Shown here in pieces: positions 2,259 to 28,882 of a stretch of DNA of 64,000 nt. Under the pieces are notes generated by a model that saw only the letters and a program-made list of their open reading frames with translations, was not told where the DNA came from and did not search any database. Origin of the DNA: Streptomyces antimycoticus (GTDB lineage: Bacteria; Actinomycetota; Actinomycetes; Streptomycetales; Streptomycetaceae). Location: the NCBI RefSeq assembly GCF_005405925.1, contig NZ_BJHV01000001.1, forward strand, positions 10,292,001 through 10,356,000, read 5' to 3'. The position numbers and the translations under genes are program-made. Position 1 is the first letter of the stretch, and each line of letters starts with the position of its first letter.

Positions 2259-2378
2259 CCGGCAGCGCGATGGGGTGCCTTCGGCCCCATCGCGAGGATT
2301 GCGAAGCGTTGTGGACTGGTCGCCCGACGGCCGAGATACGACGCGCTGTGCCCACATCCGGACTGCCAAGATAAGCGA

Positions 2379-4413: not shown

Positions 4414-5316
4414 TCATGAGGCCTGCGGCCGGCGCCAGTCGAGGGCACCGCTGTCGAGATCTTCGGCGAGCCCGGCCAGCGGCGACTCGGCGTCCCACAC
4501 CAGCCGGGTCCGGCGCCACAGCCGGCCGTTCGCCAGCCGTTTCAGCGCGACCCCCGGGCAGTGGTCGCCCGGCGCGAAGAAGGCCCCGATCGCGTTCCCG
4601 GCGCTCACGATGGCCGCCGCGGTCGTCTGGTCGGCGCCGAAATACCGGAACCGAGGGGTGAACCCCGCACGCTCGCAGGCGATCCTCAGGCTCAGGCCGA
4701 GACCGTCGGAGCGGTCGCCGGGGGCGACCCAGGTGTCCTCGGCCAGTTCTTCCAGGGTGATCAGCTGCCGATGGGCCAGCCGGTGGCCGGGGGAGAGGCC
4801 GATCAGCACCGGTTCGGTATCGAGGTCGCGGACGGTGAACTCGCGGACCGGGGGCGGCACGACATCCGGGAACTCGCTGATGACCGCGAGCGCGATCTTC
4901 TCGGTGCGCAGCAGCTCCAGCACGGCCTGGGAGGAGGGTTCCAGATAGGTCAGCTGTTCGTGATGCGGCAGCCGCTCCCGGATGAGCACGGCGATCAGGG
5001 GAACCCAGGGGTTGTCCACCCCGCCCAGCCCGACGGCCTGTGGCGGTTCGGCCGGCTGGGCCAGGGTCCGTGCCGTGGAGAGCAGATCACCGAACTCGTC
5101 GAGCAACTGCCGTGCTCTGCCCAGGACATGGACGCCGAGCTCGGTCGGCTCGACACCATGCGGGCGGCGGCGGAACAGCGGCCCGCCGAATTCCTGCTCA
5201 ATGCGTCTGAGCTGGGTGGACAGGCCGGATTGGGCGATCTTCAAAGTGGCGGCCGCATGGCTGATGCTGCCCGACTCAGCCACGGTGAGCACGATCCGAA
5301 GATGGCGCAGCCCCAT
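4414..5316 (-). CDS. LysR family transcriptional regulator
   Basis: A 300-residue LysR regulator. The N-terminal HTH reads LRHLRIVLTVAESGSISHAA and SGLSTQLRRIEQEFGGPLFRR, followed by a substrate-binding domain of normal size. The open frame allows a start 63 bases upstream, but the ATG at 5316 gives the usual LysR N-terminus (MGLRHLRIVL) and has GGAGG/AGGAAG in front of it. The start lies inside the end of the MFS gene (41-bp overlap, same strand), so it is cotranscribed with the exporter. Its target is probably the MFS gene and/or the divergent 3,4-AHBA operon. Confidence 0.85.
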   Translation of the reverse strand: MGLRHLRIVLTVAESGSISHAAATLKIAQSGLSTQLRRIEQEFGGPLFRRRPHGVEPTELGVHVLGRARQLLDEFGDLLSTARTLAQPAEPPQAVGLGGVDNPWVPLIAVLIRERLPHHEQLTYLEPSSQAVLELLRTEKIALAVISEFPDVVPPPVREFTVRDLDTEPVLIGLSPGHRLAHRQLITLEELAEDTWVAPGDRSDGLGLSLRIACERAGFTPRFRYFGADQTTAAAIVSAGNAIGAFFAPGDHCPGVALKRLANGRLWRRTRLVWDAESPLAGLAEDLDSGALDWRRPQAS

Positions 5317-6883
5317 GTCCACTTCCTGCCTCCGTCGTTGATGGTCGCGGCCGGAAATATCCGATGACGAGAACGGCACCGGCCACGGACAGCAGCGCCG
5401 TCCACGCCGCGGTGACGTACATGGCGTGCAGATAGGCCCGGTTCGCGGCGGCGAGGAGATCGGGGCGGCTCAGCGACCGCGCCACCGCCCGGGTGGCCTC
5501 CGCGGAGTCCAGGGCCGTCTCCCGTGACCCGGGAGGCAGATCGGTGAGCGAGGGCCGGATGGCCCCGCGGTAGGCGGTGGCGAGCACCGAGCCGAGCACC
5601 GCGACCCCGAGGGTGCTGCCCACCGGCCGGGCCGCGGCGTTGATCGCCGCGCCGGCGCCGGTGTAGCGCGGGGGCAGGGAGGCCATCATCTCCGCCGTCA
5701 TCGGCGCCACCACCAGGCCGATACCGGCGCCCTGCGCGAAGAGCATCCCGGCGATCCAGGCCACCGGGGTGCCCGCGTCGAAGAACACATAGCCGCCGAA
5801 GGTGATGCTGGACAGGAGTATCCCGGCGACCGCGCACCAGCGGACGGCCAGCAGCCGGGACACCGCCGGGGAGATCTGGTTGCCGAGGACGATGCCGCCC
5901 GCGGCGGCCGACATCACGGCCCCGGCGGCCAGCGTCGACAGCCCGTGCACCCCCTGCAGATAGAAGGCGCAGTAGAAGAGCTGCCCCGCCAGGCCGAAGA
6001 AGAGCAGCAGCAGGGTCACCGTGCCGCCCGCGAAGCGCGGCTCGGCGAACAGGCGCACATCGAAACCCGGCGCGGCTCGGCGGCTCTGCGACATCACGAA
6101 CGTCGCCAGCAGGGCCAGACCGACCGCCAGGGGCAGCAGCGTGGCCGGGCTCGACCAGCCGGCCGGGCGGCCGCCCCGGATGACGCCGTACACCACAAGA
6201 CCCAGCCCCAGTACGGAGAGCGCGAGGCCCAGCGGGTCGAGCACCCTGCGTTCGGCGTAGCGCAGCCCGGGCACCAGGAGCCATATGCCGAGCAGGCACA
6301 CCGCCACCACCGGAAGGTTGACCAGGAACACCGAGCCCCACCAGAACCGGGTCAGCAGCGCACCGCCCACCACCGGTCCGAGCGCGACGGCGGCGCCGCC
6401 CGCGGAGGCCCAGACCGCGATCGCCCGGGTCCGGTCGGCCGGGGCGCTGGCGCGGGTGACGATCGCCAGCGTCGCCGGGGTGATCAGCGCCCCGCCCGCG
6501 CCCATGAAACCGCGGGTGACGGTCAGCTCCGTGGCCCCGTCCGAGAACGCGGCCAGTGTGGAGGCGCCGGCCAGCAGCATCAGCCCGGTGACCAGGATGC
6601 GGCGCGGCCCGTAGCGGTCGGCGAGGGCGCCTCCGGCGAAACTGCCCGCGGCGAAGACCAGCGAGTACGAGGCGTTGGCCCACGCCAGGTCGGCGGAGCT
6701 CGCCCCGAGCCCGTGCACCGGATCGGCGAGGGTTTCCATCGCCACGTTGAGGACCGTGTTGTCCAGCAGGACCAGCGTCTGCGCCAGGACCGCCACGGCC
6801 ACGGTCCACCACTGCCGGGCGGAGGTGGCCGCGGCGCGGCCCTCGCCCCCGGCCGCGGCCGGCGCCGCGGGCCGGTGTCTCAC
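5276..6883 (-). CDS. DHA2-type MFS drug exporter (14 TM)
   Basis: A 535-residue inner-membrane proton-driven exporter. Helix 1 is WWTVAVAVLAQTLVLLDNTVLNVAM with the DHA2 motif LDNTVLNVA. Motif A follows (GGALADRYGPRR), then motif C-like glycines (AVALGPVVGGAL). Fourteen hydrophobic segments can be counted, including the extra central pair. The frame is open far upstream (to 7432), but GTG at 6883 overlaps the stop of the flavodoxin gene (GTGA) and gives a normal N-terminus. Its position next to the divergent 3,4-AHBA operon suggests it may export that product. This is inference from context. Confidence 0.85.
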   Translation of the reverse strand: MRHRPAAPAAAGGEGRAAATSARQWWTVAVAVLAQTLVLLDNTVLNVAMETLADPVHGLGASSADLAWANASYSLVFAAGSFAGGALADRYGPRRILVTGLMLLAGASTLAAFSDGATELTVTRGFMGAGGALITPATLAIVTRASAPADRTRAIAVWASAGGAAVALGPVVGGALLTRFWWGSVFLVNLPVVAVCLLGIWLLVPGLRYAERRVLDPLGLALSVLGLGLVVYGVIRGGRPAGWSSPATLLPLAVGLALLATFVMSQSRRAAPGFDVRLFAEPRFAGGTVTLLLLFFGLAGQLFYCAFYLQGVHGLSTLAAGAVMSAAAGGIVLGNQISPAVSRLLAVRWCAVAGILLSSITFGGYVFFDAGTPVAWIAGMLFAQGAGIGLVVAPMTAEMMASLPPRYTGAGAAINAAARPVGSTLGVAVLGSVLATAYRGAIRPSLTDLPPGSRETALDSAEATRAVARSLSRPDLLAAANRAYLHAMYVTAAWTALLSVAGAVLVIGYFRPRPSTTEAGSGHGAAPSSDRAHRG

Positions 6884-7484
6884 GGCTCCAGCGCTCGTCT
6901 GCCCGCGACCAGGGTCCGGGTGAGTTCCGCGACCCGGTGCCCGAGATGTTCCGCGGTGGCGAGGTCGGACTTGTGCACCGCACCGGATCGGTCGTCCACC
7001 GCGGACTGCGCGGCGGCGCCCTGGAAGAAGCCGAGCCGGTTCAGGTCGAATTCGCTTCCGGAGGAGGAATTCCACCCGGGGGCAGGCCGAGGCTGGCCCA
7101 GAGCATGCCGTGCTGTGCGGCGAGGGTGGCGAAAAAGCCCAGGGTTCCGGCCTTGTCTCCGGCCATCGAGCCGGAGTTGGTGAAACCCGCCGCCAGCTTG
7201 TCCTGCCAGCGGCGGGTGAGCCAGCGTCGGGCGCTCGCCTCCGCGAAGGCGTGGAAGGCCGACGAGGCCGTGCCCATATAGGTCGGCGCACCGAAGATGA
7301 TCGCGTCGGCGTCGTCGAGCCGATGCCATTCCTGACCGGTGATCCGGTCGACTTGGATGGAGGCGACCTCGGTGTGCGGGACCCGGCTCGCCCCGGCTCG
7401 TACGGCCTCCGCCAGCCTGGCGGTGTGACCACGTCCGCCGTGACAGGCGATCGAGATGCGTACCGGGTCGGTCAAGGCGGTCAC
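6880..7484 (-). pseudogene. Flavodoxin-family FMN reductase, frameshifted
   Basis: The ATG-initiated frame gives a flavodoxin-like N-terminus (FMN phosphate-loop region ISIACHGGRGHTARLAEAV, and IIFGAPTYMGTASSAF). It then reads LGLPPGGIPPPEANST and stops at 7041. The -1 alternative frame continues as WNSSSGSEFDLNRLGFFQG through LATAEHLGHRVAEL to a stop at 6880. That is the normal end of the family. Restoring one base at the C3G5 run near 7075-7082 makes a 201-residue protein, and the second stop then overlaps the MFS start. As written the gene is broken; the cause may be a true mutation or a sequencing error in the homopolymer. Confidence 0.75.
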
Positions 7485-7686: not shown

Positions 7687-8493
7687 ATGACCGATATTGG
7701 TAAATCATTCCGGATGCGGCGGCTCTCGGGCGTCGGGGACGGAAGATATCTTTTCGTCCCGCTCGACCACAGTGTGTCCGATGGGCCGGTGGTGTCCCAG
7801 GCCCGCTGGAACGGGCTGTTGAGGGCGCTGGTGGACGGCGGCGCGGACGCGGTCGTCGTCCACAAGGGCCGGGCGCGGGCGATCGCACCGGATATCCTGC
7901 GCCGCTGCGCCCTGGTGGTTCACCTGAGTGCGGGTACGGTGCACGCGGCCGACACCGATGCCAAGGTGCTCGTCGGCGACGTCGAAGAGGCCGTACGGCT
8001 GGGCGCGGACGCGGTGAGCGTGCATGTGAATCTCGGATCGGACACCGAGCACCGGCAACTCACGGATCTCGGGGCCGTCGCGGCCTCGTGCGACATCTGG
8101 AACATGCCGCTGCTCGCGATGATCTATCCGAGGGGGCCGCGGATCGCCGATCCGCACGATCCCGCGCTGCTCGCCCACGCGGTCAACATCGCCGCGGATC
8201 TCGGTGCCGACCTGGTGAAGACCTCGATCGCGCTGCCGATGGACCGGATGGCCGAGGTGGTGAACAGCTGTCCGCTGCCGGTCCTCGCCGCGGGTGGCCC
8301 GCCCGACGGCTCGGACCTGATCAGTCACGCGACCTCGTTGATGCTCGCCGGCTGCCGCGGCCTCGCGGTCGGCCGTCGGATCTTCTCCTCGCCCTCACCC
8401 TCCTCGTTGGTGGCGCGACTGGCCGCCGTCGTGCACGCCGTCGATGCCGGAACGACCCCCCACCCCCCGACGATCGCGACAGGAGCCGCATGA
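7687..8493 (+). CDS. griI-like: 2-amino-4,5-dihydroxy-6-one-heptanoate-type aldolase (GriI-like)
   Basis: A 268-residue class I aldolase of the DhnA/ADH-synthase family. It has the [14 protein letters not shown] entry, the [12 protein letters not shown] strand and the Schiff-base lysine in [10 protein letters not shown] (about residue 178). Family members related to GriI join aspartate 4-semialdehyde to dihydroxyacetone phosphate; the C7 product is the precursor of 3-amino-4-hydroxybenzoate. The directly overlapping gene is the matching partner enzyme, which makes the 3,4-AHBA route much more likely than the archaeal shikimate route. ATG 7687 was chosen over 7618 because [13 protein letters not shown] is the normal N-terminus and GGGAGAGG lies about 11 bases upstream. 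Confidence 0.85.
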
Positions 8494-9530
8494 AGTTCGC
8501 ATGGATCGATCTCCGAGCCGTTCCGCAGCCCCAGCTCGAATCCATCGTCGACGCCGCCATCCATACGCGGATGCAGGGCGTGCTCTGCGATGACGCATCC
8601 GTCCTCGCCGCACTGCCCCCCACCGTCACCGGCATCACCACCACGGTGGTGACCGAGGAGAAGGAGCTGTACGACCTCGGCGCCGACACCGCCGCGTGGG
8701 TCGAGGTACACGACGAACCGTCGCTGAGGCTGGCGTGCGAGGCCGCCGTCGCGCTGCCCCTCACCGTGGTCCGCTTCGCCGACCCGACCAAGATCCCGCT
8801 GGAGATCGTGCTCGCCGCCGCGGACCGCTCCGCCGGAAAGCTGATCACCGTCTGCGCCGATCTGGAAGAAGCCGCCACCGTCCTGGAGGTGCTGGAACGC
8901 GGTTCGGACGGAGTCCTGCTGGCTCCCTCCGACGCCGGCGAGGTGTTCGCGCTGGCCCGGCTGCTCGAGGCCGGCACCACTCCGCTGGAGCTGACCACGC
9001 TGACCGTCGACCGCATCGAGCACCACGGGCTCGGCGACCGGGTGTGTGTGGACACCTGCACGCATTTCGCCGAGGACGAGGGCATCCTGGTCGGCTCGTA
9101 CTCGACCGGCTTCATCCTGTGCTGCAGCGAGACCCATCCGCTGCCGTACATGCCGACCCGCCCGTTCCGGGTCAACGCCGGCGCCCTGCACTCCTATGTG
9201 CTCGGCCCGGAGAACCGGACCAACTACCTGAGCGAGCTGCGCTCGGGCAGCACGACGCTTGCGGTCAACGCCGAGGGCCGGACCCGGCCGGTCACCGTCG
9301 GCCGGGCCAAGCTGGAGTCCCGGCCGCTGCTGACCATCACCGCGAGATCGGCCGACGACATCGTGGTGAGCCTCACCGTCCAGGACGACTGGCATGTGCG
9401 GGTGCTCGGGCCCGGCGGCAAGGTCCACAACGTCACCGAGCTGCGGCGCGGCGACGAACTCCTCGGCTACCTGGCCACGGACCAGCGCCATGTGGGCTTT
9501 CCCATCGGCGAATTCTGCAAGGAAAACTGA
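8490..9530 (+). CDS. griH-like: 3-dehydroquinate synthase II family, 3,4-AHBA synthase (GriH-like)
   Basis: A 346-residue member of the archaeal-type 3-dehydroquinate synthase II family. It begins [12 protein letters not shown] and keeps the diagnostic VGSYSTGFILCCSETHPLPYMPTRPFRVNAG region (given here in part as GSYSTGFILCCSET and PTRPFRVNAGALHSYV). GriH of the grixazone pathway is a member and cyclises and aromatises the GriI product to 3-amino-4-hydroxybenzoic acid. The start overlaps the aldolase stop (ATGA), as expected of an enzyme pair. A role in primary aromatic synthesis is unlikely because actinobacteria use AroB for that. Confidence 0.87.
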   Translation: MKFAWIDLRAVPQPQLESIVDAAIHTRMQGVLCDDASVLAALPPTVTGITTTVVTEEKELYDLGADTAAWVEVHDEPSLRLACEAAVALPLTVVRFADPTKIPLEIVLAAADRSAGKLITVCADLEEAATVLEVLERGSDGVLLAPSDAGEVFALARLLEAGTTPLELTTLTVDRIEHHGLGDRVCVDTCTHFAEDEGILVGSYSTGFILCCSETHPLPYMPTRPFRVNAGALHSYVLGPENRTNYLSELRSGSTTLAVNAEGRTRPVTVGRAKLESRPLLTITARSADDIVVSLTVQDDWHVRVLGPGGKVHNVTELRRGDELLGYLATDQRHVGFPIGEFCKEN

Positions 9531-10915
9531 TGAGCGTCCGCATGCGGGAGCTCCTTGACACCCTGTTCGACGCCCATCCCGGCGAGCTGCCCTACCTCGT
9601 CCACGGTGACCACCCGGTGAGCCGCGGAGAGGTCCGGGCCGCCGTGGCCGTGGAAGCGGCGGTCTTCGCCGGGCACGGCGTCGGCGAGGGGCATACGGTG
9701 ATGCTCCAGATACCACCGAGCTGCACCCAGATAGAGGTACTGCTCGCGCTGTGGCAACTGGGCGCCCAGGTGATGCTGGTCGACCACCGGCTCAAACCGT
9801 CGGAAGTGGACGCCCTGCGCTCGTTGTGCCACCCGCAGTTCATGGTCGGCGCGGGTACGGCGGGCCGCTCGTCGCTCAGGTTCGAGCCCCGGTACGAGGT
9901 GGTCACCTCCCGGTACCCGGACGGCCGCCCGGCGGCGACCGAGCACCGGCTGGTGCAGTTCAGCTCGGGTTCCACCGGCCTGCCCAAGGTGATCGGGCGG
10001 ACCGCGGCCTCCCTGGCGGCCGAGATCGAGCGGTTCACCCGGATCGAGGGGATGCCGACCCCGGGCGAGCGGGTGTTGCTGCTGAGCTCGACCGCGCACA
10101 GTTTCGGCCTGATCGCCGGGGTGCTGCACTCCCTCGCCGCAGGCGTCTCGGCGGTCTTCGCGCGACGGGTGTCGGCCAAGGACATCCTGGCCGCCGCCTC
10201 GCGTCACGACATCCACGTCATCTTCGGCACGCCGTTCCACTACGAGCTGCTGAGCACCGCTCGGGACCTGCCCGCGCTGCCCGCCCTGCGCGCGGCGGTC
10301 TCGGGCGGGGAGATCATGCCGTCGCAGACCGCCGCGCGGTTCGCCGACCGGTTCGGCACCGGGGTCGGCGAGTCGTACGGGACCACCGAGACCGGCGTCA
10401 TCGCGATGGAGGTGAGTGGCGCCTCAAGGCCCTCGGTCGGCCGGCCGGCACCCGGTGTGCGGCTGCGCGTCCGCGAGGGCGAGCTGGACGTCTGGCTGCC
10501 GGACGGCTCACCCTATCTGCACGCTTCCGGCGGCGACCGGTACGCCGACGGCTGGCTGCACACCCACGACCGGGCCGAACTGGATTCCTCCGGCGCCGTG
10601 CGACTGCTGGGCCGTGGCGACTCCCTGGTGGTCATCGGCGGCCTCAAGGTCGATCTGACCGAGGTCGAAGCCGTGTTGTGCCGGCACCCCGGGGTCAACG
10701 GGGCCGTGGTCGTGCACGCCGGCGCCACCGAAGCCTATGTGTCCGTCGCGCCGGATGGCCCCTCGTCGGGGGAATTGCTGCGCTGGTGCCGGGACCGGCT
10801 GGCCGACTACAAGGTGCCCCGCGTCGTCCACGTCCTGGCGGACCTGCCCCGCACCTCCAACGGCAAGCTCGTCAGGCGCCGCGACGCCCTGCTCGCCCGC
10901 ACTCCCGACCGTTGA
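9530..10915 (+). CDS. Acyl/aryl adenylate-forming ligase (ANL family)
   Basis: A 461-residue member of the adenylate-forming superfamily. Motifs are A3 VQFSSGSTGLPKVIGRT, A5 GESYGTTETG, A7-like GWLHTHDRAEL, A8 LLGRGDSLVVIGGLKVDLTEVE and the C-terminal lysine in RTSNGKLVRR. It is shorter than typical CoA ligases. The start overlaps the GriH-like stop (TGATG). The most economical role is to activate 3,4-AHBA, or a derivative, and load it on one of the two carrier proteins that follow. A free CoA ligase is the alternative. Confidence 0.82.
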   Translation: MSVRMRELLDTLFDAHPGELPYLVHGDHPVSRGEVRAAVAVEAAVFAGHGVGEGHTVMLQIPPSCTQIEVLLALWQLGAQVMLVDHRLKPSEVDALRSLCHPQFMVGAGTAGRSSLRFEPRYEVVTSRYPDGRPAATEHRLVQFSSGSTGLPKVIGRTAASLAAEIERFTRIEGMPTPGERVLLLSSTAHSFGLIAGVLHSLAAGVSAVFARRVSAKDILAAASRHDIHVIFGTPFHYELLSTARDLPALPALRAAVSGGEIMPSQTAARFADRFGTGVGESYGTTETGVIAMEVSGASRPSVGRPAPGVRLRVREGELDVWLPDGSPYLHASGGDRYADGWLHTHDRAELDSSGAVRLLGRGDSLVVIGGLKVDLTEVEAVLCRHPGVNGAVVVHAGATEAYVSVAPDGPSSGELLRWCRDRLADYKVPRVVHVLADLPRTSNGKLVRRRDALLARTPDR

Positions 10916-10978
10916 CCCGCCGACCGCCCCTTGCCGCCCACCCCCATCGATTCCCGTGGCACAGAAAGGTTGCGCACC

Positions 10979-11251
10979 ATGCAGACGGCGTTGCAGAAGG
11001 AGATCCGCGACTTCGTGCTCAGCACGATCAGCGAGGAGATGAACCATCCGCTCGACGCGGACGAGATCAGCGATGACAGCCCCATGGGCACCGGCGGAAT
11101 CGACATCGACTCACTGGGCCTGATCGAGCTGCTCCTCCGCCTGGAGCGCCGGTTCGACGTGAAGTTCCCCGACGGTGACATCGAACAGGCCGGTGCGATG
11201 AACCTGGGCGACCTGATCAACGAGGTCGTCGGGCGGGGCGCCACGGCATGA
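10979..11251 (+). CDS. Acyl carrier protein 1
   Basis: A 90-residue acidic carrier protein. The phosphopantetheine-attachment motif is GIDIDSLGLIELLLRLE, with the modified serine near residue 45. Downstream it has the normal helix-II/helix-III pattern. ATG 10979 is preceded by AGAAAGG. An in-frame start 48 bases upstream would add a proline-rich leader and has no ribosome site. It is followed by a second carrier protein with ATGA overlap, so the pathway uses two discrete carriers. One may hold the aryl starter and the other an extender or second aryl unit. Confidence 0.85.
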   Translation: MQTALQKEIRDFVLSTISEEMNHPLDADEISDDSPMGTGGIDIDSLGLIELLLRLERRFDVKFPDGDIEQAGAMNLGDLINEVVGRGATA

Positions 11252-11511
11252 CCGCGGAATCCGAGGCCCGGCCGGGGATCACCGTCGACGCCGTACGGGA
11301 GCTGCTGTCCGACCCCAAGATCTTCGCCGAACTGCCGCCCGGCCTGGACGACGACGCCGAACTCGCTCTGGACTCACTGGGGCTGGTGTGGTTCCTGCAC
11401 CAACTGGAGCTGCGGTACGGCCTGGAGATCGAGCCGGCGGAAGCCTTCCTCGCCGAGTTCACCTCGATCCGCCGGATCACCGACTACCTGGTGGACGTCC
11501 ATGAGTCGTGA
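11248..11511 (+). CDS. Acyl carrier protein 2
   Basis: An 87-residue carrier protein with the attachment site ALDSLGLVWFLHQLELRYG, serine near residue 43. It is divergent from carrier 1 both in the DSL flanks and in the acidic N-terminal segment, so it is not a recent duplicate. It overlaps carrier 1 (ATGA) at its start and the ketosynthase by 11 bases at its end. Confidence 0.83.
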   Translation: MTAESEARPGITVDAVRELLSDPKIFAELPPGLDDDAELALDSLGLVWFLHQLELRYGLEIEPAEAFLAEFTSIRRITDYLVDVHES

Positions 11512-12658
11512 GGTGCTGCTGACCGGATTCGGGGTGCGTACCGCCTTCGGCACCGGGGCGGACGCACTGCGGGAGGGCGTCTTCGACGGGAGACCCGCGT
11601 TCGCGCCGATCACCCGCTTCGACATCGGCCCGTACCGAACGGGCCTGGCCGCCGCCTACGGCCCGGCCGCCCCGCTGCGTGACGTGCTGGCCGAGGTCGC
11701 CGCGGCGGCGGTCGGCATGGCCGGGCTGCCGACGGGTGCGCCGGCCGCCGTCCTGGTGGGGGCCGCGGGCGATTTCACCGGGCTGACCCGCTTCTGGCGC
11801 GCCCGGGACTCTCCCGGCTCTCCCGGTGCGGCGGTCTCCGGCGGCGCCGCTGAGACCGTGCCCGCCTGGCAGGCCGAGGCCCTCGCGGACACGCTCGGCG
11901 TGCGCGGCCCCCGGCTGGCGTTCACCGGCGCGTGCGTCGCCTCGGCCGCGGCGATCGCGCATGGCTGCCAGCTCATCGCCTCCGGCCGGGCGGAGACCGC
12001 GATCTGCGCGGGGGCGTACCTGGTGGAGGAGGAGAACCTGGCCAAGTTCGACTCGGGATTCGCCCTCTCCCGGGACGGAATGGTGCGGCCGTTCTGCGCC
12101 GACCGCAGCGGTCTGCTCCTCGGGGACGGAGCCGCCGCCATCGTGCTCGAATCCGTCGACGGCGCCCGGCGCAGGGGAGCACGTGCGCTCGCTGCGCTGA
12201 CCGGCTGGGGCGCCGCCGGCGACGCCCACCACATCGCGCGGCCCCATCCGGAAGGCGCCGGGCTGGTCGCGGCCGCCGGCCGGGCCCTGCGGCGTGCGCG
12301 CGGCCCGCGGATCGACTACGTGAACGCGCATGGCACCGCGACCCGGCACAACGACCCCGCCGAGACGCGCGGACTGCGCACGCTCTTCGGCGCGGACGCG
12401 GCCCGCACACCGGTGAGCTCGACGAAGAGCACCACGGGACATCTGCTGGAGGCGGCCGGTGCGGTGGAACTCGTGATCACCCTGCTCGCGCTGCGGGACG
12501 GGGTCCTGCCGCCCACCGCCGGATTCACCGAACCGGATCCACACTGCGATCTCGACTATGTGCCGAACCGCCCCCACAAGGCCGACGTCCGGCGTGCGCT
12601 CACGGTCAACGCCGCGTTCGGTGGCGCCAACACCGCGCTGGTACTGGAGCGAGCATGA
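11501..12658 (+). CDS. Beta-ketoacyl synthase (FabF-like, complete catalytic triad)
   Basis: A 385-residue ketosynthase. The nucleophile is Cys near residue 145 (FTGACVASAAA). The two histidines are in AHGTATRHND (about 277) and STTGHLLEAAGA (about 314), so the decarboxylative Cys-His-His set is intact. It lies between two carrier proteins and a truncated ketosynthase-like protein. No acyltransferase, ketoreductase or dehydratase is in the operon. It could extend an aryl starter by one or few units using host AT/KR/DH, or form an amide/ester bond between aryl units. The latter role was described for the ketosynthase BomK of benzoxazole A33853 biosynthesis. Confidence 0.85.
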   Translation: MSREVLLTGFGVRTAFGTGADALREGVFDGRPAFAPITRFDIGPYRTGLAAAYGPAAPLRDVLAEVAAAAVGMAGLPTGAPAAVLVGAAGDFTGLTRFWRARDSPGSPGAAVSGGAAETVPAWQAEALADTLGVRGPRLAFTGACVASAAAIAHGCQLIASGRAETAICAGAYLVEEENLAKFDSGFALSRDGMVRPFCADRSGLLLGDGAAAIVLESVDGARRRGARALAALTGWGAAGDAHHIARPHPEGAGLVAAAGRALRRARGPRIDYVNAHGTATRHNDPAETRGLRTLFGADAARTPVSSTKSTTGHLLEAAGAVELVITLLALRDGVLPPTAGFTEPDPHCDLDYVPNRPHKADVRRALTVNAAFGGANTALVLERA

Positions 12659-13257
12659 TCGCCGCGATATCCGGTCCGTCCGCGCCGCCCGTCGCCGGCT
12701 TTGTGGAGTCCGCCTTCAATCCGATGGTGTACCAGGCCGTCGAGCGATGTCTGACCGCCCGGCCGGGCGACGGCTCCAGGACCGCCATGGTCCTGGCCAG
12801 CACGATGGGGGATGCCGCCACCCTCGATCTCGGCAGCCGTCTGCTGGTGGCCGGGCAGGTGCACAATCCGCTGTTGTTCATGCAGTCCACCGCGAACGCG
12901 GTCCTCGGCCGGCTCAGCCTCGAGTTCGCCATCACCGGACCGCTGCTCTGCCTGTCCACCGTGGCGGACCCGGCCGGTGAGCTGCTGGCCACCGCGGAAC
13001 TGCTGCTGGAGGACGAGGAGCTGGACCGGATCGTGCTCATCGGGGTCGAGCTGACCGGCACCGAGCGCACCACGGCGGCGCACCGCGAGCTTCGTACCGG
13101 CCCACCCGCCGCGGATCTGGCCGTGGCGATCGTGCTGGACCGGGACGATCCGGTCCCGAGCCTCCCGCCCGACATCCCGCCCACCCCCTCGGGGGAGTAC
13201 GGCACCCTTCGCGGCCTGGTCGAGCTGGCCGCCCGAATCCAAGGAACCACATCATGA
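12655..13257 (+). CDS. Truncated ketosynthase-like protein (chain-length-factor-like)
   Basis: A 200-residue protein resembling only the N-terminal half of a ketosynthase fold (NPMVYQAVERCL, VLASTMGDAATLDLG, FMQSTANAVLGRLSLEFAI, TGPLLCLSTVADPAGELL). There is no nucleophilic cysteine at the GxC position (the region reads GPLLCLSTVAD) and no HGT or GH histidine motifs. The length, ATGA overlaps on both sides and good codon use argue for a real gene, not a relic. Similar short KS-like partners occur in aryl-polyene-type type II systems. It probably pairs with the ketosynthase just upstream. Confidence 0.65.
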   Translation: MIAAISGPSAPPVAGFVESAFNPMVYQAVERCLTARPGDGSRTAMVLASTMGDAATLDLGSRLLVAGQVHNPLLFMQSTANAVLGRLSLEFAITGPLLCLSTVADPAGELLATAELLLEDEELDRIVLIGVELTGTERTTAAHRELRTGPPAADLAVAIVLDRDDPVPSLPPDIPPTPSGEYGTLRGLVELAARIQGTTS

Positions 13258-14951
13258 TCACCAAACAGGAACGCGCGCGGATCAGCGAGGACGCCGCCCT
13301 GGGGGCCGGGAATGTGATCCACCGGCTGAAGGCGTACGGCAGAGAGCTCGACGAGCAGGTCCTGTGGACCGATGCCACCTGGCAGGCGCCGGACGGCGGC
13401 CACCCCGAGGTGCTGACCCTGGGCGAGCTGCACGAGGCCGTGGAGATCTACGCGAGCTGGTACCACGCACAGGGCGTCGGGCCCCGCGACCCGGTGGCGA
13501 TCCAGACCTATTCCAGCACCGAGTTCGCCATCAACTTCCTCGCCCTCACCTCCCTGGGCGCGATCCCCTCCTTCGTCAACGGCAACCTCCGTCCGGAGAT
13601 CGCCCGCGAGTATGTGCGGCGCCAGGGCGCGGTAGGGGCCGTCACCGACCGGGCCCATCACGCGGTCCTCGCCCCGGACCGTGCCGAACTGGGGCTCGGC
13701 TTCTGTGTCACGGCGGCCGACATCCGCGCGGAGAACCGCGAGCCCCTCCCCGCGGCCTATCCTTACTCCCACCACGCCACCGATCCGATCATCATCTCGC
13801 ACTCCTCGGGCACCACCGGGATGCCCAAGGCCGTTCCGCACACGCATCAGACCCTGCTGTACGCGCAACTGCACCGGCTGAAGCTGTCGGTCGGCTCCGC
13901 GATGGGCAGGCTGCTGGTCGCGCTGCCCGGCTCGCACAACGCCGCCATCTCGGTCATGCTGTTCGGCTTCCTGCTGCGCTCGCCCGTATCGATGCTGTCC
14001 AGCCAGCGGGGGATCGACGTCCTGGACGCCATGGAGTCGTTCCACCCCACCACGGTGTTCGCGTTCGCCGGAACCTACGGTGAGATGGCGGCCCAGGATC
14101 TCTCCGCCCGCGATCTGTCCAGCGTGGAGGCGTGGTACAACACCGGGGACGCGGCGCACGAGACACATATCAAGGCGCTGATCGAGCAGGGCAGCCATGA
14201 GACGGTCGGACGGGATCTGAAGCGGCGCCGGGTCCCCGGCTCCGTATTCACCGATGGACTCGGCTCCTCCGAGACCGGCTACTCGCTCTTCCACAACGGA
14301 CACAAGCCCGGCAGGTCGTCCTTTTCGCGCTGCGTCGGCAAACCGATGAGCTTCGCCGAGGCGGCGGTGCTCTCCGAGGACGGCACACCGCTGCCACCCG
14401 GCGAGATCGGCCGCCTCGGCGTGCGCTCGCCCACGCTCACCCCCGGATACTGGAACGACTCGCTGACCTTCCACCGGCTGCGGCTCGGTGGCTACTGGCT
14501 CACCGGCGATCTCTCCTATCGGGACGAGGAAGGAAACTTCTACCACCTGGACCGGGCGCCGGACGCGATCCGCACCCCCACGGGCATCGTGTTCAGCACC
14601 CGCACCGAGGAGTTGCTGCTGCGCGAGATGCCCGAGCTGGACGACTGCACGGTGGTGGCGGTCGCGCCCGAGGGCGTACGAGCGGACTGGGACGGCGACG
14701 GCACCGCCGACGCCTACGCCCTGCTGCAGGTGTCCGCGGACGCGGCCGACACGAAGACCGACGACGCCCGATGGACGGCCGAGGTCAACCGGGTGCTGAT
14801 CGCCGCGGGCTTCCCGCAGCTGACCGGAGCGCTGCGGATGGATCCGAGCGAGGTGGTGAAGGGAGCCACCGGCAAGGTGCTCAAGCGGGAGATGCGCGAA
14901 CGCTTCCGGGCCCGGGTGGCCGCCGGCGAGCTGGACGGGAAGGTGCGATGA
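13254..14951 (+). CDS. Second adenylate-forming enzyme (ANL family)
   Basis: A 565-residue member of the ANL superfamily. A3 is ISHSSGTTGMPKAVPHTH, A5 GLGSSETGYSLF, A7 YWLTGDLSYRDEEGNF, and the C-terminal catalytic lysine is in KGATGKVLKREM. The A8 hinge is unusual: DRAPDAIRTPTGIVFSTRTEE in place of the standard GRxxDxIxxxGxxVxxxEIE. The start overlaps the preceding gene (ATGA) and the stop overlaps the next one (ATGA). With one ligase already upstream, this enzyme may activate a second acid partner or form an amide. The substrate cannot be read from the sequence. Confidence 0.8.
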   Translation: MITKQERARISEDAALGAGNVIHRLKAYGRELDEQVLWTDATWQAPDGGHPEVLTLGELHEAVEIYASWYHAQGVGPRDPVAIQTYSSTEFAINFLALTSLGAIPSFVNGNLRPEIAREYVRRQGAVGAVTDRAHHAVLAPDRAELGLGFCVTAADIRAENREPLPAAYPYSHHATDPIIISHSSGTTGMPKAVPHTHQTLLYAQLHRLKLSVGSAMGRLLVALPGSHNAAISVMLFGFLLRSPVSMLSSQRGIDVLDAMESFHPTTVFAFAGTYGEMAAQDLSARDLSSVEAWYNTGDAAHETHIKALIEQGSHETVGRDLKRRRVPGSVFTDGLGSSETGYSLFHNGHKPGRSSFSRCVGKPMSFAEAAVLSEDGTPLPPGEIGRLGVRSPTLTPGYWNDSLTFHRLRLGGYWLTGDLSYRDEEGNFYHLDRAPDAIRTPTGIVFSTRTEELLLREMPELDDCTVVAVAPEGVRADWDGDGTADAYALLQVSADAADTKTDDARWTAEVNRVLIAAGFPQLTGALRMDPSEVVKGATGKVLKREMRERFRARVAAGELDGKVR

Positions 14952-15496
14952 CCGAGGTCGACCGTACGAGCCCCGGTACGAGCCCCGGTACGAGCCCCGG
15001 TACGAGCCCCCGGCCCAGGACCATGGACGTGTACCGGCAGTGGTGGCTGCACGACGCGCGCTGGTACCAGGGGGTGGCGAAGCGGTTCGGACACGCGGTG
15101 GCCAATGAGATCAACGCCGAGGCGCTGCGGTATGTGGCCGTCCAGGTGGGCAAACGGATAGCCCGTCAGTTCGGCGGCAAGCCCGCGGTGGACCTCGAGG
15201 AGCTCCGCCGCCGGTACGACGCCTGTTCCGAGTGGATGTTCCCGAGCGAGCTGCGGGACGGGGCGACCGCGGTGCTCCCGGACGGGGAGATCGAGCTGAC
15301 CATGCGGCAGAACTTCGCCGTGGTGATGGTCCGGATGGCCGGTTCGCTCGACGGCTACAAGTGCCCGTGCACCGACATCCACGCCGGCTGGTCGGAGGGG
15401 CTCGGGGTCGAACTCACCCGCAACTGCGCCACCGCGTGTCTGCGGGACGGCGACCCCGCCTGCCGGCTCCTGATGCGGGTCGGGAGCCCGGTATGA
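14948..15496 (+). CDS. Small uncharacterised protein, DUF6125/ATC-hydrolase-like
   Basis: A 182-residue soluble protein with no signal peptide. After a repetitive TSPG leader (residues 7-21) it reads MDVYRQWWLHDARWYQGVAKRFG and ends with NCATACLRDGDPACRLLMRVG. The WLxxDxxWYxxVxxxFG start and the Cys-containing RDGDPxCR end resemble, from memory, the DUF6125 and thiazoline-carboxylate hydrolase-like families. I cannot verify this. It has several cysteines (KCPCTD, NCATAC, PAC) that could bind metal. It overlaps both neighbours by ATGA, so it belongs to the pathway. A cyclisation or hydrolysis step is possible but unproven. Confidence 0.6.
   Translation: MTEVDRTSPGTSPGTSPGTSPRPRTMDVYRQWWLHDARWYQGVAKRFGHAVANEINAEALRYVAVQVGKRIARQFGGKPAVDLEELRRRYDACSEWMFPSELRDGATAVLPDGEIELTMRQNFAVVMVRMAGSLDGYKCPCTDIHAGWSEGLGVELTRNCATACLRDGDPACRLLMRVGSPV
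14965..15010 (+). repeat. 12-bp in-frame tandem repeat (TSPG units)
   Basis: The unit TACGAGCCCCGG is repeated 3.8 times inside the 5' end of the gene at 14948 and encodes a TSPG tetrapeptide run. The repeats are nearly identical, so they are young or prone to slippage. A length change of one unit keeps the frame. Confidence 0.9.
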
Positions 15497-16413
15497 CCGC
15501 GCGAGTCCTTGTCGCCGGGGCCACCGGGGTGATCGGCCGCGCACTGGTTCCGCTGCTCCGTGCCCGCGGCCATCATGTGACCGCGCTGGTACGGGAGCCG
15601 TCCCGGGCGGCCGGGCTGGCCCTGGACGGCGTCGTGGTGGCCGACGCGCTGGAAGCCGAGGCGGTGCGCGCGGCGGTGCTCTCGGCCCGGCCGGACGTGG
15701 TGGTGCATCAGCTGACCGCCCTGCGCGGCCCCACCGCGGAGGGCTTCGAGCCGACCGCCCGGCTCCGCACCGAAGGCACCGCGCATCTGATCGCGGCCGC
15801 CGAGGCCGCCGGGGCGGAACGGATGGTGGCGCAGAGCATCGCGTTCGCCACCGCTCCCCGCGGCGGGCCGGTGCTCACCGAGGACGCACCGCTGTATGCC
15901 GACGCACCGGATCCGGGCTGGGCGCTCACCACGCGCGCCATCGCCGAACTGGAGCGCCGGATACTGGGCGCCGCACACCTCTCCGGGACCGTACTGCGCT
16001 ACGGAACCCTGTACGGGCCGGGCACCCTCTATCACCGCGCCGGTGCGTTCGGCGGCGCGGTGGCGCGCGGCAGGCTGCCACTGCCGGAGCCCGCCGCCGG
16101 GATCACCTCGTTCCTTCACGTCGAGGACGCCGCACGGGCCGCGGTGTGCGCCGTGGAAGCGGATACCGACGGCGTGTTCAACGTGGCCGATGACGACCCG
16201 GTCGAGGCCGCGGTCTGGCTGCCCGAGTACGCCCGTCTGCTCGGAGCGCCCCCGCCCCGGACGGTGCCGGCGCAACTGGCCGAGCGGTTGCTGGGCTGGT
16301 TCACCAGCTACCAGCTCACCGCCATGCGCGGCGCGGCCAACGACCGCGGACGGCAGGCGCTCAACTGGAAGCCCGCGGTGTCGAGTTGGCGGACACGACT
16401 GGCCGACGACTGA
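15493..16413 (+). CDS. NAD-dependent epimerase/dehydratase family protein
   Basis: A 306-residue extended-SDR protein. The Rossmann motif is VAGATGVIG (about residues 7-15). An RYGTLYGPGT segment and a SFLHVEDAARA segment follow, as in nucleoside-diphosphate-sugar epimerase-like and atypical SDR proteins. The canonical YxxxK pair is not obvious: AQSIAFA occupies the Ser strand and TTRAIAELE the helix. The ATG at 15493 overlaps the stop of the preceding gene. It is the last gene of the operon and the only visible redox enzyme in it, so it may reduce a carrier-bound or released intermediate. Confidence 0.75.
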   Translation: MTARVLVAGATGVIGRALVPLLRARGHHVTALVREPSRAAGLALDGVVVADALEAEAVRAAVLSARPDVVVHQLTALRGPTAEGFEPTARLRTEGTAHLIAAAEAAGAERMVAQSIAFATAPRGGPVLTEDAPLYADAPDPGWALTTRAIAELERRILGAAHLSGTVLRYGTLYGPGTLYHRAGAFGGAVARGRLPLPEPAAGITSFLHVEDAARAAVCAVEADTDGVFNVADDDPVEAAVWLPEYARLLGAPPPRTVPAQLAERLLGWFTSYQLTAMRGAANDRGRQALNWKPAVSSWRTRLADD

Positions 16414-16446: not shown

Positions 16447-17058
16447 CTACAGGCCGTCGGGTTCGGTGAGGCTGGGGTGATTGATACGTCGCCGCATCGC
16501 GGGGAGGTGGCCGGCGAGCAGGGCGATACCGGGCATGTCGACGAGGGCGAGGGCCGCCATCGGTATCCAGGTGGCGGCCGGCCCACGGGCGAGAAGCGTG
16601 GTCATGAGCGCGGGTGTGACCACGTCACCGATGCTGAAGGCCATCTGGGAGAGCGAGTTGTACCGGCCCCGACTCGCCGCGGTGGCACAGTCGTTGACGA
16701 TGGGCGACACGATCAGGCTCTGGATCAGTTCGCCGACGGTCACCAGGACGACCGCGGCGAGAGCGCAGCAGATACTGAGTGCCGACGGCACGTACGCACA
16801 GCACAGCACCGCGACGAAGGCACCGCCGACGATGGCCTGCGATGCCATCAGGCTGCTCCATCGCCGATGCCCGGTGAGCGCGGCGCCCACGGGTGTGGCG
16901 CCCACGGGTGTGGCGCCCACCGCGCCGAGTACGGCGTTGACCGTGAGGACGGTGCCGGGTATCCACGGTGGTAAGTGCACCGTGTCGACGAGGAAGACGG
17001 GAACGGCGAGGCCGAGGCGACCCCGAAGCGGACCGCACCGCTCCGGCGGCCGACGCAC
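16447..17058 (-). pseudogene. MFS transporter, C-terminal half remnant
   Basis: About 200 residues that correspond to the second half of a 12-helix MFS protein (FLVDTVHLPPWIPGTVLTVN, ELIQSLIVSPIVND, RGRYNSLSQMAFSIGDVVTP). The first six helices and motif A are absent. The neighbouring oxidase gene ends 22 bp upstream of the putative start, so there is no room for the missing half. A 15-bp direct duplication around 16883-16920 makes GATPVGATPVGA in a helix. I judge it a truncated, non-functional transporter. Confidence 0.65.
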
Positions 17059-17079: not shown

Positions 17080-18678
17080 TCAGGTGCCGATCGCTTGGGG
17101 ATAGCTGAAGAAGTTGGTCGGGTCGTACGTCCGATTCACTCGGACCAGCCGGTCGTAATTCGCGCCGTAATAGGCCCGCCGCCAGTCCTTCAGGGTCGGA
17201 TCCGGGAAATTCTGATAGGACTGCGGCGGGGGAGTGTCACCGAAAATGCTCTGGTAGAACTCGCTGAGCCAGTAAAGATTCGCCGTGGCGACACGTGGCG
17301 GGTCGTAATCCGCCCAGGAGGTCTCGACGGCGAGGATGAAGACCCCGTTTCGGTGGACGAACGCCGTCGCGTCCGGCGGCACTTGGTTGATCTCGCCGCC
17401 GAGGGCGAACATGGCGAACCCGGCCCCGTCCTCGTTGTCGCTGCCGGGCCACTCCAGCAGCCGCTCGGCAGCGGCACCGATTTGCTCATCGGTCAGGAGT
17501 GTCCGAGAGGTCAGAACCGCCGACTTGCCGGCGAACTGTTGCACCGGCGTGGTCGCGCTCAGCAGCTCGCTCGCCTGCCCCGGGGTGACCTCCCGGACCG
17601 ACGCCTCGTTGCGGGCGCGCTCCTCCGCCGTGCCGATGGCGAGCATCGGGGCCAGGATGGCGCGCAACTCATCGAGGTCACCGTAGTACTGGCCGATGGC
17701 ATTGACGCCCGCGTTGGCGTGGATCTGGTCCCTGGTGAGCCCGTGGGTCCCCATGCCGACGCGAAGATGGAATCGCTTGTCGTCCAGGGTGTCCACGGCG
17801 ATCTGTTGCGCGGCGGCGAGCACCGGCAGCACCGAGTCCAGGCTCCAGCGCAACTCGTAGAAGCCCACGTCGCCCTGGAACCGCTCGTACTGGAACGTAA
17901 AGGAGGTGTTGACACCGAAGTTGTTCCCCGCCCCGCCGCGACAGCCCCAGAACAGATCGGAGTGGGAGTCCTCGCCGGCCTCCACCACGCGGCCGTCGGC
18001 GAGTACCACGGTCGTCGAGACCAGCCGGTCACAGGTCAGGCCGAACATCTTGTCGCTGAAGCCGATACCGCCGCCGAGCACCAGCCCGGCCACCCCGACC
18101 GTGGGGCAGCGGCCGGTCGGCACGAACATGCCGCGGTCCTCCAGCATGGGGTGCAGGTCGCCGTTGGTGACGCCGGCTCCCACGGTGAGGGTGCCCGCGC
18201 CGTGAACGACCCTCATCCGCCCGTAGGTCCGGGTCCGGGAGCGGGCACCCGGCAGCGAGGTGGAGACGATGTTTTTCATGCGGGCCATGTTGAGGAGCAG
18301 ACCCGTGGTGGCGGAGTACCCGGCGTAATTGTGGCCCAGCCCGGAACGAGGGACGGCGGGCAGTCCCACCGCGCGGGCCCAGCGGACCGCCGCACGGACA
18401 TCCCTGGTCGTGGCGCACGCCACAATCCCCGCGGGGCGGATCCCGGCGTACCGGTGGTTGAACGGAAGCGCCAGCGGCGGGTAGCCGGAGTCGCTCGGCC
18501 GATAGAGCGTGGAGCGCGACGACAGTGCCTGAGCCAGCAGCTGCCAGTCCCGTTCGCCGACCCGCTCCGCCACCTCGGTGGGTGGCGCGGCAGCGGCGGG
18601 CGATGACGGCAAGCCCGCCACCTCCGTGCTCAGGACACCCACCGTGCCCGCCCGCAGTACGTTCCGCCTGTTGATCAA
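17080..18678 (-). CDS. Secreted FAD-linked oxidase (berberine-bridge type)
   Basis: About 532 residues. The N-terminal Tat signal is RRNVLRAGTVGVL followed by AAAAPP. The FAD-binding PCMH domain has both covalent-flavin residues: His in RSGLGHNYAGYS and Cys in GRCPTVGVAGLVLGGGIG. This is the bicovalent arrangement of BBE-like oxidases. The C-terminal berberine-bridge box is NRTYDPTNFFSYPQ. The frame opens at 18783 with GTG, but the TTG at 18678 has GAGGG eight bases upstream and places the twin arginines at residues 4-5. Family members oxidise sugars, alcohols or alkaloid-like rings in the cell envelope. The substrate is unknown. Confidence 0.8.
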   Translation of the reverse strand: MINRRNVLRAGTVGVLSTEVAGLPSSPAAAAPPTEVAERVGERDWQLLAQALSSRSTLYRPSDSGYPPLALPFNHRYAGIRPAGIVACATTRDVRAAVRWARAVGLPAVPRSGLGHNYAGYSATTGLLLNMARMKNIVSTSLPGARSRTRTYGRMRVVHGAGTLTVGAGVTNGDLHPMLEDRGMFVPTGRCPTVGVAGLVLGGGIGFSDKMFGLTCDRLVSTTVVLADGRVVEAGEDSHSDLFWGCRGGAGNNFGVNTSFTFQYERFQGDVGFYELRWSLDSVLPVLAAAQQIAVDTLDDKRFHLRVGMGTHGLTRDQIHANAGVNAIGQYYGDLDELRAILAPMLAIGTAEERARNEASVREVTPGQASELLSATTPVQQFAGKSAVLTSRTLLTDEQIGAAAERLLEWPGSDNEDGAGFAMFALGGEINQVPPDATAFVHRNGVFILAVETSWADYDPPRVATANLYWLSEFYQSIFGDTPPPQSYQNFPDPTLKDWRRAYYGANYDRLVRVNRTYDPTNFFSYPQAIGT

Positions 18679-19014
18679 CGTGGCTGCCCTCGCAAGAAGT
18701 GCTCCGGAGACGCGATGGTCTCCCTCCCTCGCAAAGTCAACCGGCGATTGATCGGCGCAGCGGCGAAACGTATTCCCGTCCACAGGTCCGCAACCCGAAA
18801 GAAGGCCGACCTGCCGCTGAATGCCCCAGCCCGGTATGACGAACGGGCGCGCTCATCCAAGCGCCCGCTCCCCGCCACCTCCGTCGGCGCACGGCCGCCG
18901 TCCGTGAGCCCGGGTGCCGGGTCGGAGTGCTGCTACGCCGTCACACCGTCTTCAGCTGTCCGCCGTCGACGACGGAGTCGGCGGAACACAGGACCGGGCT
19001 GGACGTTCGGTGCC
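18679..19014. other. Intergenic stretch without a supported gene
   Basis: 336 bp upstream of the oxidase and downstream of the pentapeptide-repeat gene. It must carry the oxidase promoter. Open frames here are short and shadow-like. I see no remnant, repeat or clear hairpin. Confidence 0.5.
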
Positions 19015-20562
19015 TCATCGCTTCATCCGCCCACGGATCGCGAGGGCGGCGAGGCCGAGGAGGACCGGCTCCGAGAAGCGGGATGCCATCTCGATGTACC
19101 CGCCGGCTACGGTCAGGTCCTGCCCGCCGGAGCGGAACACGGTCGAGTGGAGCGTCACCTCCAGAGCCTTCTCAAGGCGTTTGCCGGTGAACCGGTCCCC
19201 GGTGGGGTTCTCCGGGTCCTGCTTGTCGATCTCGAAGGTGACCTTGCCGCCCGGGGGCGGCACCGTGGCCGTCGCCTGCTGCTTCGGGGAACCCTGGGGC
19301 AGGCCGAAGCCTGTCAGCAGCACGATGGTGAGGAGCATCGAGGCCGCTAGCCAACCGAGCGCGCGTGAGGCACGCAGACCGTAGCCGGACAGCAGCCAGT
19401 ACGCCTGGAGCAGCCAGCGGTCCGCCTCACTCCACGTACGGCTGTGGCGACGCATCTCCATCTCGCCGTAATAGAAGTCGGCGGCTCCCGGTTCGTCGCG
19501 GGCGTCCTCGCGGGCCTTGCGCAGCTGCCGGTAGGTATCGGCGAGGGCGGCCGGGTACGGAGCCGGCCCCGGGGTCTGCCAGCCCCTCCACCACGCCTCT
19601 TCGACGATGACGTGCCGTCGGGTCCAGCGCCGGCCGCGGGGCGGTTCGGCGAAGACGCAGGAGCCCTCGATCTGCAGTTGGTCGAGGTGATGGGTTCCCC
19701 CGAAGACACACCGTGACAGGTCGACGTCGAAGAGGAGCAGCATGGACGCGTCGACACCGGAGAGCGAGGTGACCGAGGGGCGCTGGTCGGGCGCGGTCGG
19801 GTAGGCCGGGATACCGGAGTGCGCCACATGGTGTTCCATCGACGTCAGGGTGCATCGCTCGGCAAGACGGGCGCGCGTGAGGTCGATGGATGCGCCACTC
19901 GCCTTGAGGGTGACCGGTGCCTCGAACCAGGCCCCGGTGAAATCGACGTGGTCGGCGACGACTTGGGCGACCGTATGCCTGGTGATGTGGCTCTCTCGCA
20001 GGTCCAGCAGCCGGACGCCGTGAGCCCCCATGAACCAGGGCCCGGTCGCGAACGACGCACCGCGGAAGACGAGGTGCCCGGCCGGGGTTGTGCCGTCGGC
20101 CGTGCACCGCACCTCGTCGAAGTTGGCGAGCGCGTGGAACTCGGCCCCGTCGAACCGGGCCGCCGAACCGAATAGCGCGCCGGCGAACACGGCGTCCTGC
20201 CTGAACCTCGCTTCCCTGAACCACGCTCCCTTGTCGAAGCACACCATGTTGAAGTGGGCGGCGCCGGTGAAGACCGCCTTGTCGAATCGAGCCCGTCCAC
20301 AGCGCGGCCGCTCCTCGCCGGGCCGGCACAGCGCGTCCAGCAGTTCGTCCAGCAACTCACCGCTGATCTCGGTGCCTCGCGCGTCGATGTCGTCCCCGGG
20401 CGTCAGGGTCGCGAGGTAGGCGAGGCGCTCCTCTTGGCCGAGGTGTCCGAGGCACCGCTCGAATCCGCCGATCCTGATACCCGTGCATCCGACCGGCTCG
20501 TCCCCTGTGGCCCCGTCACCGCAGTGGTTCCAATCCGGCGCAGTGATACCCATGAGGGCCAT
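19015..20562 (-). CDS. Pentapeptide-repeat membrane protein
   Basis: A 515-residue protein. Residues about 88-200 form a pentapeptide-repeat right-handed helix with the A(D/N)xF-type register (ARFDKAVFTGAAHF, ARFRQDAVFAGALF, ARFDGAEFHALANFDEV). More degenerate repeats continue to about 310. A charged segment (TYRQLRKAREDARDEPGAADFYYGEMEMRRH) then leads to a transmembrane helix near 404-424 and a second hydrophobic segment near the C-terminus. The TYRxLRxxxEDxxxxxxAxxFYYxEMxxRR motif is seen in membrane-tethered pentapeptide proteins. Function unknown. It lies 84 bp downstream of a zinc-ribbon membrane protein on the same strand. Confidence 0.75.
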   Translation of the reverse strand: MALMGITAPDWNHCGDGATGDEPVGCTGIRIGGFERCLGHLGQEERLAYLATLTPGDDIDARGTEISGELLDELLDALCRPGEERPRCGRARFDKAVFTGAAHFNMVCFDKGAWFREARFRQDAVFAGALFGSAARFDGAEFHALANFDEVRCTADGTTPAGHLVFRGASFATGPWFMGAHGVRLLDLRESHITRHTVAQVVADHVDFTGAWFEAPVTLKASGASIDLTRARLAERCTLTSMEHHVAHSGIPAYPTAPDQRPSVTSLSGVDASMLLLFDVDLSRCVFGGTHHLDQLQIEGSCVFAEPPRGRRWTRRHVIVEEAWWRGWQTPGPAPYPAALADTYRQLRKAREDARDEPGAADFYYGEMEMRRHSRTWSEADRWLLQAYWLLSGYGLRASRALGWLAASMLLTIVLLTGFGLPQGSPKQQATATVPPPGGKVTFEIDKQDPENPTGDRFTGKRLEKALEVTLHSTVFRSGGQDLTVAGGYIEMASRFSEPVLLGLAALAIRGRMKR

Positions 20563-27217: not shown

Positions 27218-27233
27218 CCAACTCCAACCTCCA

Positions 27234-28877: not shown

Positions 28878-28882
28878 ACCAC

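Follow-up and report, generated by a model that had tools for sequence, protein, structure and literature searches.

A probable cma-type diazotisation-dependent deamination cluster in Streptomyces antimycoticus, with p-coumaric acid as its likeliest product

The window considered here is a stretch of 64,000 nucleotides from the genome of Streptomyces antimycoticus (RefSeq assembly GCF_005405925.1, contig NZ_BJHV01000001.1, positions 10,292,001 to 10,356,000 of the forward strand), and the system in question is an operon of ten genes at window positions 7687-16413, which an earlier note made from the letters alone had described as an operon for 3-amino-4-hydroxybenzoic acid (3,4-AHBA) with an unrecognised product. 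Judged by homology and gene order, it appears to be an additional member of the known ava/cma family of diazotisation-dependent deamination clusters and, as such, to be largely explained already; with a probability of about 0.8 it is a cma-type, ava-related cluster whose product would be p-coumaric acid. What remains of specialist interest is the subclade of its ketosynthase (KS) and chain-length factor (CLF), the absence of a nitrite supply and the fold of protein B. As described in PMC10777205, avenalumic acid is the product of the ava cluster and p-coumaric acid that of the cma cluster in Kutzneria albida, both clusters having the gene order I, H, A1-A6, B, A7, and the order in the window, I-H-A1-A2-A3-A4-A5-A6-B-A7, is identical to that of the published clusters (PMC10777205, Table 1). 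All ten genes lie on the + strand, overlapping or almost contiguous:

7687-8493, +: I, DhnA/DeoC-type aldolase of the 3,4-AHBA pathway (Pfam DeoC; NF005556 at 300.9 bits, cut-off 241)
8490-9530, +: H, 3,4-AHBA synthase of the 3-dehydroquinate synthase II type (Pfam DHQS; NF002625 at 509 bits, cut-off 375)
9530-10915, +: A1, ANL-family acyl-ACP ligase predicted to load 3,4-AHBA onto the acyl carrier protein (ACP) A3 (Pfam AMP-binding and AMP-binding_C; synteny; role after CmaA1/AvaA1 as given in PMC10777205)
10979-11251, +: A2, predicted ACP for the extender unit (PP-binding; DSL motif without W and H)
11248-11511, +: A3, predicted ACP for the starter (PP-binding; DSLGLVWFLH motif, W and H after the DSL serine)
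11501-12658, +: A4, complete KS (Pfam ketoacyl-synt N and C; Cys/His/His motifs)
12655-13257, +: A5, truncated CLF of 200 aa (weak Pfam ketoacyl-synt match of 19.3 bits, below the 20.8 cut-off; KS/CLF alignment; trees)
13254-14951, +: A6, second ANL enzyme, ATP-dependent diazotase of the 3-aminoavenalumate type (NF058622 at 1121 bits, cut-off 975; PDB 8ZTZ/9IJF at 897 bits)
14948-15496, +: B, DUF6125-like accessory protein of 182 aa (Pfam DUF6125 below cut-off; modelled Bet3/V4R fold)
15493-16413, +: A7, short-chain dehydrogenase/reductase (SDR), NADPH-dependent 3-diazoavenalumate denitrifying reductase (NF058621 at 530 bits, cut-off 400)

Profile matches, motifs and synteny bear out the presence of the genes that the earlier note named, at the position that it gave: the complete KS, the truncated KS-like protein, two ACPs, two ANL enzymes, the SDR and the small DUF protein are all found, and no acyltransferase, ketoreductase, dehydratase or thioesterase is seen among the operon genes. 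Its view that I and H make 3,4-AHBA agrees with the DeoC and DHQS matches and with the NF005556 and NF002625 scores. Of the two hypotheses that it put forward, the first, a short type II extension of an aryl starter, was right, to judge from the kinship with ava and cma. The gene set cannot be called unrecognised, because ava and cma, clusters with known products, agree with it in their core genes and in the order of these (PMC10777205, Table 1), and a characterised cluster of this kind was what the note itself had named as the finding that should overturn its claim. The earlier question about the cluster is thus answered by its characterised relatives, and another is raised, namely why bacteria should pay for so costly a route to a common phenolic acid. 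Genes were called by a rough rule based on GC content at third codon positions, which mislabels some small genes; the assignments rest on homology searches.

The KS-CLF pair and two discrete ACPs of the window are as in the ava and cma clusters, and in the KS/CLF alignment the position of the KS active-site Cys holds no Cys in A5. Both W and H follow the DSL serine of A3 in 34 of the 34 loci in which the motif was found, and the A2 of the window is without both; the account in PMC10777205 ties these residues of A3 to recognition by A1. A scan of genome contigs yielded 44 relatives of A6, 39 of them in ava/cma-type loci (L046-L048, L050 and L052 are not of this type and were left out of the counts). 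The core order recurs in these 39 loci of other actinomycete genomes, save for genes lost at contig ends, for A7, which is absent from five (L013, L015, L016, L024, L044), and for B, absent from L049; recurring so widely, it is not a product of chance. R and G lie upstream in 19 of the 39 (16 also with F), and two cma-like loci cut by contig ends (L012, L017) were placed by trees; 16 are of ava type, including L027, whose upstream side is cut off and which was likewise placed by trees. L049 and L051 stand in between. In six further loci, of the genus Kutzneria, R, F, G, E and D are present in every case. Among 199 related genomes searched, A6 is above cut-off in eight, that of the window included. 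Four of the excluded loci (L046, L047, L048, L050) are Streptomyces clusters with an A6 relative 36-37% identical, and L050 also carries E and D.

The subtype is indicated by genes upstream of the operon, which the earlier note did not mention: R, F and G, divergent from it (~4414-7470), and a two-component system (2214-4390).

2214-3074, +: response regulator of the OmpR type (Pfam Response_reg and Trans_reg_C; true start probably further in)
3071-4390, +: sensor histidine kinase, its partner (Pfam HisKA and HATPase_c)
4414-5379, -: R, cmaR-like LysR-type regulator, start probably ~5316 (Pfam HTH_1 and LysR_substrate)
5276-6850, -: F, predicted cmaF-like exporter of the major facilitator superfamily (MFS), start approximate, listed open reading frame to 7432 (Pfam MFS_1; NCBIfam DHA2-type efflux families, best below cut-off)
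6883-7470, -: G, cmaG-like protein of the flavin mononucleotide (FMN)-reductase/flavodoxin fold, proposed ketoreductase, in two frames with a first stop at ~7043 (homology to the G of relatives)

According to PMC10777205, what marks the cma subtype is a LysR gene together with a gene for an FMN oxidoreductase instead of FabG, and the window has the cmaR-like LysR gene and the cmaG-like FMN oxidoreductase, the latter in two frames, and no FabG. With R, F and G upstream the cluster would be of cma type, which in turn makes p-coumaric acid the likeliest product. A homologue of R on the minus strand accompanies all 19 cma-type loci whose upstream side is available, and one of F 16 of the 19. The kinase has a homologue in 15 of the 21 cma-type loci, adjoining R except in L024, where it follows B; the response regulator is found in four of the 21 (in 12 of the 17 without it the available sequence starts inside the kinase gene), and one or the other in 16. 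The six Kutzneria loci gave no two-component match, L084 being uninformative with only ~0.5 kb beyond the start of R, and two ava-type loci, L036 and L038, have distant matches (35-38%) well away from the core. Simple synteny could account for the linkage in the most closely related Streptomyces; the linkage carries more weight in Umezawaea, Lentzea, Goodfellowiella and Amycolatopsis. Past the two-component system lies an SDR gene (333-1292).

Set beside the cma cluster of K. albida, the window shows the same arrangement of R, F, G, I, H, A1-A7 and B, and differs in having no cmaE/cmaD, a split G, a two-component system alongside and another KS/CLF subclade. The Kutzneria locus L079 stands in for K. 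albida in these comparisons; its A6 is 73% identical to that of the window and 99.8% identical to PDB 8ZTZ, which we infer to be CmaA6. The ava cluster of Streptomyces sp. RI-77, as presented in PMC10777205 and PMC11705231, shares I, H, A1-A7 and B with the window, which for its part has neither AvaE/AvaD nor the FabG ketoreductase A8, has R and G instead, and has a shorter CLF; in the interval from A7 to 21.3 kb, where A8 was not found, there are an MFS-like gene, a berberine bridge enzyme (BBE)-type oxidase, a pentapeptide-repeat gene and one further gene. In 13 ava-type loci an MFS gene stands upstream for which the window has no equivalent. Close relatives lie in Streptomyces iranensis, endocoffeicus, rugosispiralis and violaceusniger (L009-L011, L045), which have the architecture of the window, A6 proteins 92-94% identical, no E/D in the stretch examined (that of L009 ends just past A7) and, unlike the window, G in one frame; the L045 genome has a lyase above cut-off elsewhere, with no close CreE-like gene adjoining.

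Each step of the following route is suggested by homology to enzymes of K. albida and Streptomyces sp. RI-77 whose roles were tested or proposed there. I and H would make 3,4-AHBA, which A1 would load onto the ACP A3; the A4/A5 KS-CLF pair would add malonyl carried by the ACP A2, one round sufficing for p-coumarate; the keto group would be reduced by G and/or a ketoreductase of the fatty acid synthase (FAS), and FAS would carry out the dehydration. Once released, 3-aminocoumaric acid would be diazotised by A6 with ATP and nitrite, and A7 would replace the diazo group with a hydride from NADPH to give p-coumaric acid. The nitrite might be taken up from the environment, be supplied by general metabolism, or be made by a lone CreE-like enzyme if some other lyase acted as its partner.

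Several findings weigh against this assignment, concerning the state of G, the nitrous-acid genes and comparisons of the KS and CLF. The coding of G in the window is split over two frames by an apparent frameshift, which may be real or an assembly error; in 20 of 20 relatives examined (the six Kutzneria copies stand outside this count) G is a single frame. Pfam FMN_red matches the L009 copy, and the first piece of the window G has no Pfam match. Removal of cmaG is described in PMC10777205 as reducing production without abolishing it, so that the pathway could still run despite the split.

The nitrous-acid genes E and D are found neither beside nor within the window cluster, a search of the whole genome returned no nitrosuccinate lyase above cut-off, and for the dissimilatory nitrate reductase NarG the genome gave three weak matches, none above cut-off. 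Hence it might be that deamination is idle for want of nitrous acid and that the cluster stops at 3-aminocoumaric acid or its N-acetyl form, A6 and A7 acting only on outside nitrite. The encoded route would be shared with that to p-coumaric acid, and the two are not exclusive. Of the 39 clusters, 14 contain E as well as D, one (L037) has D without E, and 24 have neither; a clear adjacent E-D pair occurs elsewhere in only six of those 24 genomes (L015, L016, L026 with the lyase below cut-off, L034, L035, L040); a pair in L042 stands at a contig end and is ambiguous, and in L031 the pieces are on separate contigs. For L009, L012, L017, L033, L035 and L042 the sequence of the locus stops within the cluster or close to it, and the whole-genome searches cover them. 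Even so, we think idle deamination unlikely: both A6 and A7 are whole in the window, 20 of the 24 loci that lack E/D retain A7 (two of the 20 in part, at contig ends), and the genome holds a lone CreE-like gene. Of the 134 related clusters reported in PMC10777205, 72 are without E and D, which are hence not defining for the ava/cma family.

That lone gene (G000:C1:3448192-3450225; L065:9192-11228) encodes a flavin adenine dinucleotide (FAD) enzyme 51% identical to the E of L020, with no lyase adjoining, and is a candidate that may serve as nitrite source; a second, more distant CreE-like gene (35%) lies at ~C1:2757900-2759700. The lone enzyme and three relatives group in one clade, adjacent to the E proteins of the clusters (support 0.986; the absence of a neighbouring lyase refers to the window genome's copy), and orthologues of ~67-93% identity are found elsewhere among the 39 genomes and in further genomes of the same genus, Streptomyces. 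The best lyase match in the window genome, L066, scored 534.8 bits against a family cut-off of 650 and was read as PcaB, because its score for the PcaB family TIGR02426 (391 bits) is also over the cut-off of 355.75 and because it adjoins protocatechuate dioxygenase and PcaDC genes, each above cut-off. Cut-offs alone are indecisive for the lyase, since the D of the L049 cluster also passes TIGR02426 (363 bits); cluster-encoded D proteins score at least 627 in 15 of 15 cases, two of them below 650 (L023 at 627, L037 at 649).

The remaining points bear on chain length. In a concatenated FastTree of 45 rows (L045, with a broken A6 reading, was dropped) the window, the cma-type loci, L049 and the six Kutzneria loci separate from the ava-type loci and L051 with support 1.0, and the window falls in a subclade adjoining that of Kutzneria. 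Its KS and CLF thus appear to form a subclade apart from both the Kutzneria and the ava ones, and PMC10777205 raises the prospect that a third CLF clade yields other chain lengths. The CLF of the window is 53.6% identical to that of L079 and at a median of 53.8% to the ava-type ones, and its KS is closer to the ava type (69.1 versus 65.1% to L079); these identities exclude gaps and are not comparable with the 35.4% given for CmaA5/AvaA5 in PMC10777205, since the same measure gives 56.0% for L079 versus ava. An IQ-TREE of the CLF alone leaves deep forks (41/87) unresolved, with some cma-type rows on the ava side. For CmaA5, then, with L079 as proxy, the window CLF stands in a subclade of its own, which the concatenated tree places on the cma side, the deep forks of the CLF tree being open; single-gene trees alone are insufficient to decide chain length. 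It is conceivable on these grounds that the same pathway extends the starter at least twice, the product being avenalumic acid or a still longer aryl polyene acid, but we regard this as rather improbable. R, F and G are cma gene content; the CLF is short, at 197-208 aa in the subclade of the window against 224-301 aa in the 16 ava-type loci, length being an imperfect mark (L024 at 264 aa and L049 at 250 aa on the cma side, L051 at 208 aa on the ava side); and one block of the CLF has the letters TGP in the window, in all 21 cma-type loci, in L049 and in L079, against TGQ in all 16 ava-type loci and L051 (the pattern missed the CLFs of L080-L084). As the identities give the K. albida proxy no advantage over ava and the deep forks are open, a product of one extension is suggested mostly by gene content, the short CLF and the TGP/TGQ block.

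The second hypothesis of the earlier note, that the KS joins AHBA units through amide or ester bonds as for A33853, draws on the co-occurrence of AHBA genes, KS, ANL enzymes and ACPs and is very improbable indeed, since A6 and A7 match the diazotase and denitrifying-reductase families above curated cut-offs and gene order and CLF agree with ava/cma. The grixazone, bagremycin/ferroverdin and A33853 clusters have a 3,4-AHBA-type aldolase and synthase in common with the window, the BagB/FevI and BagC/FevH families matching it below cut-off; to our knowledge they share no KS-CLF-diazotase set with it.

Within the preferred assignment to the cma type, protein B offers a new lead. A Bet3/V4R fold is predicted for it by modelling, the structural match spanning the whole domain; its DUF6125 match (23.7 bits) is under the Pfam cut-off of 27, and ATC_hydrolase matches at E<=1 in 15 of 19 B proteins, at best 5.5e-4. 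A sequence search of solved structures with B gave no match, and a literature search for V4R/Bet3 with polyketide found, by title, no V4R protein in polyketide synthesis. One might tentatively go further, although we doubt it, and take the window to represent a third subgroup among the clusters for deamination by diazotisation, set apart by a KS/CLF clade of its own, by a two-component system dedicated to it and by the lack of nitrous-acid genes. Deamination in this subgroup would use outside nitrite or the lone CreE-like enzyme, and B would be a partner with a V4R fold that binds a phenol or an acyl group and is perhaps the hydrolase, otherwise missing, that frees the aryl acid from its carrier. 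Both the nitrite source of clusters without E/D and the role of B are now testable in this genome.

Among the comparison loci, L013, L015, L016 and L024 are cma-type clusters with no A7 gene following B; with 44 first-look candidates scored per genome, the genomes of the first three gave no A7-family match at E<=1e-60 and that of L024 only a weak match of 221 bits, and their products may retain the amino or diazo group. In ava-type L044 an A7-family gene lies ~1 Mb from the cluster.

Next to the cluster in the window are an MFS-like gene (16447-17058), a BBE-type FAD oxidase (17080-18783) and a pentapeptide-repeat protein (19015-20562); the first two have no homologue at E<=1e-15 in the compared loci. 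Further on, 26191-35725 holds genes for a PadR regulator, an ANL ligase, xanthine-oxidase-type subunits, an enoyl-CoA hydratase, CoxG and MFS proteins, an operon perhaps for the breakdown of an aromatic acid. A link of this operon (27-34 kb) to p-coumarate breakdown was not drawn because the matches are unspecific: the ligase scores 238 bits with a feruloyl-CoA synthetase structure and 239 with a fatty-acyl-CoA synthase, and the hydratase best matches 3-hydroxypropionyl-CoA dehydratase and general enoyl-CoA hydratases. An operon of the lactate-racemase type (35829-40242) comprises a LarA-like gene, a PP-loop gene and an AIR carboxylase-like gene, which we take to be LarE-like and LarB-like, respectively, and a nickel insertion protein. 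At 45788-63998 lies a siderophore cluster, presumably coelichelin-like, with a formyltransferase, an ornithine/lysine oxygenase, two FecCD permeases, a binding protein, an ABC transporter and a nonribosomal peptide synthetase extending past the window.

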